Shown here piece by piece: positions 10,507 through 12,458 of a stretch of 64,000 bases of DNA; position 1 is the first letter of the stretch; each line of letters opens with the position of its first letter. Both the position numbers and the translations under genes were made by a program. Source of the stretch: Haloferax mucosum ATCC BAA-1512 (GTDB lineage: Archaea > Halobacteriota > Halobacteria > Halobacteriales > Haloferacaceae); contig NZ_AOLN01000018.1 in NCBI RefSeq assembly GCF_000337815.1, positions 62,001 through 126,000 on the forward strand. The letters are read 5' to 3'. The notes below the pieces were generated by a model. It did not search any database and was not told where the DNA came from. It worked only from the letters and a program-made list of their open reading frames with translations.

Positions 10507-10941
10507 ATGGGCATGGAATCTACGTCCACGGAGGGACGAATCCTCTCGGTCCTGGAGGAAGACGCGAAAGCGTCGTACGCCGAGATTGCCGACCGGGCGG
10601 GTGTGTCGAAGCCGACGGTCCGAAAGTATATCCGAAAGCTCGAAGAAGACGGCGTCATCATCGGTTATTCGGCCGATATCGACCCGAAGAAACTCGCCGG
10701 GCAATCGATTGCGATGGTCGGCATCGACGTTGCGAGCGAGCGCTACGTCGAAGCGACGCGGACGTTGAAGGAACTCGACGCTGTCGAGGCGCTGTACACG
10801 TCCTCCGGAGACCACATGCTCATGGCCGAGGTTCGCGCCATGGACGGCGACTCACTCGGCGACGTCATCTCCGACGATATTCTCTCTATCAACGGCGTCG
10901 AAGCCGCACACCCGTCGTTCTTACAAGAGCGACTCAAGTGA
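10507..10941 (+). CDS. Lrp/AsnC family transcriptional regulator
   Basis: 144 residues. The N-terminal winged helix-turn-helix (about residues 8-55, with ASYAEIADRAGVSKPTVRKY as the HTH core) is followed by a RAM/ligand-binding domain from about residue 65. Such proteins are octameric or dimeric regulators that often sense amino acids. It lies 112 bases after porB, beyond the terminator, so it has its own promoter, but the proximity suggests that central carbon or amino acid metabolism could be its target. A second possible start is the ATG at 10513. Confidence 0.92.
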   Translation: MGMESTSTEGRILSVLEEDAKASYAEIADRAGVSKPTVRKYIRKLEEDGVIIGYSADIDPKKLAGQSIAMVGIDVASERYVEATRTLKELDAVEALYTSSGDHMLMAEVRAMDGDSLGDVISDDILSINGVEAAHPSFLQERLK

Positions 10942-11050
10942 CTGCCAGCGAGCGTCGATACTCGCATCGTTCCTCCTCTCCGATTCGATTTGGGTCCGCA
11001 ATATTCGCCGACGTTTGTCCGCACCTGCCGCGTGTCCACTTTCACGACGC

Positions 11051-11068
11051 TACCTGAACGTTCAGGTA
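11051..11068. promoter_or_regulatory. 18-bp perfect palindrome upstream of dinB
   Basis: TACCTGAACGTTCAGGTA reads identically on both strands and ends 22 bases before the dinB start codon. A symmetric site of this length at that position is what a dimeric repressor operator would look like. It is near the place where transcription would begin for a short-leader mRNA. No factor can be named: LexA is a bacterial regulator. Confidence 0.6.
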
Positions 11069-11090
11069 TGTCGCCCACGTCCCTCCGATA

Positions 11091-12458
11091 ATGGCGGAAG
11101 AGACACTGCCGGGAACGACGAGCGACGACCGTCCCGACAGAATCGTCCTCCACGTCGATATGGACTGTTTTTACGCCGCTTGCGAACGCCTCCGAGAACC
11201 GTCACTCGCCGACGAACCCCTCGTCGTCGGGATGGGGTACGAATCGGGCGAAACCCACGGTGCCGTCGCCACGGCGAGTTACGAAGCCCGGGCGTTTGGC
11301 GTCGAGAGCGCCCAGCCAATCTCCACCGCACTCGACCGACTCCCCCGACGCGCCGACGTCGGTCCCGGCGACGACCCGGCCGAGACGGGCTACTACCGCA
11401 CCGTCGACCTCGAATTCTACAAGTCCATCGCCGCCGAGGTCAAATCGATTCTCCACGACTGCGCCGACGTCGTCCGCGAGGTGAGTATCGACGAGGCGTA
11501 TCTCGATGTCACGGACCGAACCGCGTGGGACCTCGCGCCCGCTGGCGACCGGACGCTCGCGGAGGGTTACGCCCGCTACGTGAAACAGCGAATCGACCGC
11601 GAAGTCGGTGTGGCGGCTTCGATTGGCGTCGCGCCGAACATGTCCACCGCGAAAATCGCCTCCGATTTCGACAAACCCGACGGACTCGTCGTCGTCCGCC
11701 CCGGCGAGGTCCGGTCGTTTCTCGAACCGCTCCCAGTCGAGGAGGTCCACGGCGTCGGTCCGGTGACGGCCCGCGAACTCGGCTCGCTCGGTATCGAGAC
11801 GGCGGGTGACCTCGCGGCGGCCGACTCGTCGGTGCTCGAATCCAACTTCGGGTCTCGCGGCCGCGAACTTCACGAACGAGCGCGCGGTTACGACAAACGA
11901 GAAGTCACCCCGACGGGACGACCGAAGAGCCTCTCGCGTGAATCGGCGTTCACCGAGCCAACGACCGAGGCGGAAGCGAAACGCGAGGTCGTGCGCGCCC
12001 TCGCGGCCGACGTAGCGGACCGCGCTCAGTCGCGCGGCGCGATGTACCGAACCATCGGCATCAAGGTGGTCGTCCCGCCGTTCGACATCAGCACCCGCGC
12101 GCGTTCGCTCTCTGGTCCCGTGGACGACCCGGACCTCGTCGAGTCGGTCGCACTCGACCTGCTGGACGCCGAGTTCGGCGACGCCCGCGTCCGAAAGCTC
12201 GGCGTTCGCGTCTCGAACCTCTCGTTTTCGGACGCCGACCAGTCGAGTCTCGACGGATGGGAGACGAGCGATTCCGACACACCTTCGCCTTCGGGTGCGG
12301 AGTCGGAAGCGAAAACAGAACACGAGCGGGAAACACCGGATGCGAGAGCAACCCGAGACGGGGTGAAACAGGACACAGAGGCGTCGAACCCGGGTGATTC
12401 GCGGTCCGACGGGTCGAAAACGCGGCGCGGTCAGTCCTCGCTGGTCGAATTCGACTGA
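11091..12458 (+). CDS. dinB: DNA polymerase IV (Y family)
   Basis: 455 residues. Catalytic motifs of Y-family translesion polymerases are present: VDMDCFYAACE near residue 22 and SIDEAYLD near residue 132 with the Asp-Glu pair. The helix-hairpin-helix region (VHGVGPVTAREL) is near residue 222 and the little-finger domain follows. The last 80 residues are a hydrophilic tail that ends in QSSLVEFD, a good PCNA-interacting peptide; a second similar motif, QSSLDGW, lies near residue 385. The enzyme copies damaged templates in the cytoplasm. The 3' end overlaps the convergent histidine kinase gene by 28 bases. Confidence 0.95.
   Translation: MAEETLPGTTSDDRPDRIVLHVDMDCFYAACERLREPSLADEPLVVGMGYESGETHGAVATASYEARAFGVESAQPISTALDRLPRRADVGPGDDPAETGYYRTVDLEFYKSIAAEVKSILHDCADVVREVSIDEAYLDVTDRTAWDLAPAGDRTLAEGYARYVKQRIDREVGVAASIGVAPNMSTAKIASDFDKPDGLVVVRPGEVRSFLEPLPVEEVHGVGPVTARELGSLGIETAGDLAAADSSVLESNFGSRGRELHERARGYDKREVTPTGRPKSLSRESAFTEPTTEAEAKREVVRALAADVADRAQSRGAMYRTIGIKVVVPPFDISTRARSLSGPVDDPDLVESVALDLLDAEFGDARVRKLGVRVSNLSFSDADQSSLDGWETSDSDTPSPSGAESEAKTEHERETPDARATRDGVKQDTEASNPGDSRSDGSKTRRGQSSLVEFD

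Follow-up and report, generated by a model that had tools for sequence, protein, structure and literature searches.

The window, by which we mean the whole analysed stretch of 64,000 nucleotides, contains on its forward strand a dinB (polY) gene at 11091..12458 that encodes a Y-family translesion polymerase of 455 amino acids. The gene had been called dinB from the sequence, and matches to Pfam IMS and IMS_C, together with a match above cut-off to the NCBIfam DNA polymerase IV model, bear out this assignment; the corresponding polY of H. volcanii is HVO_1302. Directly 5′ of dinB and on the same strand lies lrpA1 (10507..10941), which encodes an Lrp/AsnC-type regulator recognized by NCBIfam NF041395 above cut-off and which adjoins dinB on its upstream side at each of the 15 Haloferax loci as well as at many loci of other Haloferacaceae. 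The intergenic DNA carries CACTTTCAC at 11037..11045 (forward strand, -54 to -46 from the dinB ATG), the core of a haloarchaeal UV box resembling TTTCACTTTCA, a motif taken from PMC2556686. This box ends five bases 5′ of the perfectly symmetric 18-mer TACCTGAACGTTCAGGTA at 11051..11068, to which no strand is assigned. The palindrome was found exactly as first described, with 22 bases (11069-11090) between its end and the dinB ATG.

Taken alone, the palindrome is at chance level for a 64-kb window. No other perfect palindrome of the window is as long, but 60 shuffled versions of the window contained a mean of 0.92 palindromes of at least 18 bp, at least one being present in 62% of them. When the H. 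mucosum genome, from which the window derives, was scanned with up to three mismatches, the palindrome at dinB was the single site. We consider the palindrome real because all 15 Haloferax genomes keep it at that position. Pure coincidence without function, which would fit the chance expectation for a palindrome of such length in the window, is hardly tenable given that 14 of its 18 columns are invariant across 15 species while the flanks vary.

The genus comparison comprised 15 Haloferax species genomes, every one of which has dinB; one row (L026, the second piece of the split dinB of G012) was dropped. Direct comparison places CTGAA-NN-TTCAG 22-23 bases 5′ of the dinB ATG in all 15, with the consensus TAYCTGAANNTTCAGGTR and a centre that reads CG in H. 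mucosum only and GG or GC in the other Haloferax. The palindrome is thus conserved upstream of dinB in related species, which was the check named in the first-pass annotation, in a form that is perfect in one species only. In the region from -50 to -5, the best 18-mer has nine of nine symmetric pairs in one genome, eight in nine genomes, seven in four and six in one, and among the 15 Haloferax symmetry over all nine pairs is confined to H. mucosum. None of the 15 genomes departs from T, A, C, T at the outer positions of the left arm. Those changes that do occur within the dyad break its symmetry, with pair 3/16 being T·G in 11 of 15 genomes and pair 1/18 being T·G in 4 of 15, and no compensating change accompanies any of them. 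Since the copies share one ancestor and hardly vary, the agreement among Haloferax is not independent evidence for the symmetry itself.

Beyond the genus, a dinB match was present in 91 genomes of other Haloferacaceae, and the upstream DNA was examined for 63 of them, with the dinB start placed at the nearest in-frame ATG, so that a few starts may be misplaced (L141, L144 and L147 clearly are in one alignment). CTGAA-NN-TTCAG was found in none of these 63 upstream regions, and it was found in 2 of 80 named haloarchaeal loci, both of them Haloferax. Within the Haloferacaceae the dinB match is split in two in G023, G027, G028, G048, G066, G068, G082, G096, G097 and G104, mostly near residues 90-160, a pattern that suggests an inserted or divergent stretch.

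The position of the palindrome corresponds to that expected for a leaderless haloarchaeal core promoter. The reported haloarchaeal consensus is CGAAA for the BRE and TTWT for the TATA element, and 72% of H. volcanii protein-coding transcripts are described as leaderless (PMC4983044); BRE and TATA centroids, measured for small RNAs, lie near -38 and -29 (PMC5892119). On the basis of position and family alignment, CTGAA (11054..11058, forward strand, -37 to -33) is the presumed BRE at dinB and TTCAGGTA (11061..11068, forward strand, -30 to -23) a presumed weak TATA element. Both stand within a few bases of these centroids, and their positions would match BRE/TATA spacing provided that the dinB transcript is leaderless, with TTCAGG as a weak TATA. 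Relative to the usual leaderless core promoter, the presumed dinB TATA is off consensus and the Haloferax block is nearly palindromic. Other genera have GAAGCTTAAG, GAACACTAACG, GAACGTTCAG and similar strings at the same offset, whether anchored on the box or on the ATG. These strings, of the form GAAnnnTTAAG or GAAnnCTAACG, are BRE/TATA-like without being palindromic, and they look like the BRE and TATA of a leaderless haloarchaeal promoter. The pattern AANNTTNA occurs at -45 to -20 in 15 of 15 Haloferax (shuffle mean 0.08), in 19 of the 63 other Haloferacaceae (0.66) and in 21 of the 80 named loci (0.59). As controls, the radA and lrpA1 promoters of the same 15 Haloferax carry the invariant blocks CTGTTAACGAGGGTTTATG and GATTCGCAAGATATTTTT, respectively, at the corresponding place. 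Because both do so, Haloferax core promoters, to judge from two controls, usually have a conserved block of 15-20 bases.

The box just 5′ of the palindrome links dinB to two further genes of DNA maintenance, radA and top6B. A UV-B motif, TTTCACTTTCA, has been reported at radA1, top6B, vng17 and vng280 of Halobacterium NRC-1 (Boubriak et al. 2008, PMC2556686), and the radA1 and top6B genes that bear it are UV-B-induced (PMC2556686); dinB is not mentioned in that paper. Like the Halobacterium motif, CACTTTCAC of Haloferax dinB stands about 54 bases 5′ of the start codon and directly 5′ of the presumed TATA, and the same box is present in Haloferax radA and top6B. The window’s dinB differs from the Halobacterium motif in that it keeps the 9-mer CACTTTCAC with two mismatches to TTTCACTTTCA in the 11-mer (11034-11044, GTCCACTTTCA), and the palindrome has no counterpart in the Halobacterium system described. 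Sharing of the box within the genus was observed directly: each of the 15 Haloferax has CACTTTCAC, exact or with one base changed, both at radA (-56) and at top6B (-60). At dinB, a strict regular expression finds the box in 14 of 15 Haloferax at -54/-55 (shuffle mean 0.11), the exception being G003, which has TATTTTCAC. The distance from box to ATG is nearly constant across the three genes in Haloferax. Among the other Haloferacaceae the same expression finds the box at dinB in 36 of 63 loci (shuffle mean 0.36) and misses it in 27.

We further searched the 15 Haloferax genomes with an extended box, YACTTTCRCYNYGCTR, and obtained 25 exact matches, of which 14 lie at radA, 9 at dinB and 2 at top6B, with none elsewhere; a reversed-pattern control gave 2 matches. 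As YACTTTCRCYNYGCTR was derived from radA and dinB, having been written after these two had been seen and before top6B was looked at, the radA and dinB matches are partly circular, and the independent part of the result is the matches at top6B and the absence of any other match. These 25 do not include the window’s own dinB, a weaker match with GACGC after the 9-mer. The bare 11-mer TTTCACTTTCA with up to one mismatch gave 33 matches in the H. mucosum genome compared with 26 for its reversed control, no clear enrichment, and only the extended box, rather than the bare 11-mer, is specific. A literature search found no regulator of the UV box.

Taking position, conservation and the shared box together, we favour the reading, to which we assign a probability of roughly 0.6, that the dinB promoter is damage-linked and belongs to the known UV-box class, and that the palindrome is its core-promoter element. 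The damage-linked regulation of dinB proposed in the first-pass annotation is therefore likely, because CACTTTCAC is common to radA and top6B; the palindrome, from which it had been proposed, does not evidence it. In the mechanism we envisage, the left half of the palindrome would supply the BRE (CTGAA) and the right half the weak TATA (TTCAGGTA), TBP and TFB would presumably use CTGAA...TTCAGGTA, and transcription would begin at the ATG or right beside it to give a leaderless mRNA. A putative activator at CACTTTCAC would act after DNA damage and help to recruit TFB and TBP to the weak core element, such that dinB mRNA would rise after damage, presumably including UV. The Haloferax ancestor may have gained a BRE/TATA pair that reads nearly alike on both strands, and purifying selection on the core promoter would then keep the near-palindrome. 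Certain observations count against the core-promoter reading. TTCAGG is a poor TATA box when compared with the haloarchaeal consensus TTWT, and the invariant outer bases of the left arm stand 5′ of the GAA of the BRE. Moreover, the symmetry exceeds the usual chance level once GAA/TTC is fixed, the chance that at least five of the six remaining pairs match being 0.0046. Given this value and the invariant outer left arm, the dyad may have an added role. The strict expression for the box also fails at the dinB of G003 and at 27 of 63 other Haloferacaceae, and the exact matches of the extended box leave out the dinB of the window itself.

The main rival reading, in which such a role is explicit, takes the dyad to be an operator to which a dimeric regulator binds. 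In the simplest case this would be a repressor that blocks TBP and TFB at the dinB core promoter until relieved by damage or stress, acting besides the UV box. The arrangement of CTGAA-NN-TTCAG around a variable centre (CG, GG or GC) in 15 of 15 Haloferax would befit a spaced dimer site, one outer A·T pair is also invariant, and overlap with the BRE/TATA would suit a repressor. A search of the 15 Haloferax genomes with AYCTGAANNTTCAGRT (up to one mismatch) returned dinB in 15 of 15 and five other sites in total, compared with 12 for the reversed control. Since these five come from 4 of the 15 genomes, none of them can be general, and the search revealed no second conserved dyad site in any of the 15 Haloferax genomes. 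Within 200 bases 5′ of radA and of top6B, the dyad is absent in 15 of 15 Haloferax in each case. The site thus does not recur before several repair genes: dinB alone carries it in 15 of 15 Haloferax, and it is present at 0 of 30 radA and top6B promoters. On these grounds the palindrome was rejected as the operator of a regulon. With one site per genome and no conserved second target, with the dyad missing from all 63 other Haloferacaceae examined, and with variation that breaks its symmetry and is never compensated, a dedicated dimeric repressor is without independent support, and we regard it as possible but unlikely. Of the earlier proposal that a regulator acts on the symmetric site, then, the possibility stands, whereas positive support is missing, since the dyad has no second conserved site, is absent at radA and top6B, and overlaps the BRE/TATA position. 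LrpA1 was likewise considered as a candidate binder of the palindrome and set aside: the lrpA1 promoter has no matching dyad in its consensus, though the gene is next to dinB in every one of the 15 Haloferax. G006 (L003 1501-1518), alone among the Haloferax genomes, has a close variant of the palindrome, TAACTGAACGTTCAGATA, about 14 bases 5′ of a phosphohexomutase-like ORF, named by eye; this is taken as chance. A literature search with the string CTGAACGTTCAG gave no match in papers on archaea, as judged by title.

A symmetric site 5′ of a Y-family polymerase gene resembles a bacterial LexA/SOS operator. The SOS box is CTG-N10-CAG, a spacing unlike that of the dinB dyad, and the dyad is a single-gene site. 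The LexA model TIGR00498 had no match in the H. mucosum genome, which is 97.81% complete, and the same search was positive in 9 of 14 control genomes. LexA was rejected as the regulator of the palindrome on this basis, in agreement with the first-pass annotation, which had set it aside as bacterial.

The palindrome could also act as RNA, forming a hairpin (7-bp stem, 4-nt loop) in a dinB 5′ leader that controls translation. All 105 of 105 pair cells over the 15 Haloferax remain standard pairs, the variable ones being G-U, and the window sequence folds well, with 4 of 200 shuffles equal or better (z -2.6). No change is compensatory, however, and the covariation seen was equalled in 500 of 500 shuffles. 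The stem is missing from other genera, and a search of Rfam up to E = 1 gave no match. With the UV box at -54, there is no space for a TATA that would place the palindrome inside the transcript. These points render the hairpin very improbable. Less probable again is a symmetric core promoter that works in both directions and yields an antisense transcript reaching into lrpA1 at its 3′ end. From the sequence, a perfect palindrome reads as BRE followed by TATA on either strand, but 14 of the 15 Haloferax lack full symmetry, and we give this proposal scarcely any weight.

The core-promoter and operator readings could in principle be combined. Quite tentatively, and as a rather improbable proposal, Haloferax dinB might be under two-layer damage control, with an activator at the UV box and a Haloferax-specific dimeric dinB repressor on the BRE/TATA block. 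Such control, if true, would be the archaeal counterpart, in function, of the way LexA governs a translesion polymerase, achieved by a novel protein. PMC5626843 describes halophilic archaea as having no SOS response. The core-promoter reading remains the one we prefer: the palindrome is real and conserved in Haloferax, but what it marks is most likely the core promoter. Of more use than the palindrome is the shared box, through which dinB is linked to radA and top6B. By way of this position-fixed box, three scattered genes become a small damage regulon that can be tested in Haloferax, a tractable genus, and the shared UV box provides a defined bait for an archaeal damage regulator, with the palindrome as a second, separable bait.

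Additional sites were noted in the course of these searches. In the H. mucosum genome, exact TTTCACTTTCA also occurs at L081 1501-1511, L085 1501-1511 and L084 1501-1511: one copy lies about 55 bases 5′ of a DUF5790 ORF, one about 63 bases 5′ of an 85-aa ORF that is followed by a longer ORF with the look, by eye, of an integrase, and one about 226 bases 5′ of an ORF of the uracil-DNA-glycosylase superfamily. Many dinB upstream regions of the Natrialba, Natrinema and Natronorubrum type (L197, L208, L227, L229 and similar) share CAACGTTCAC, another string around AACGTT, which lies about 38 bases 5′ of dinB, near the offset of the palindrome.
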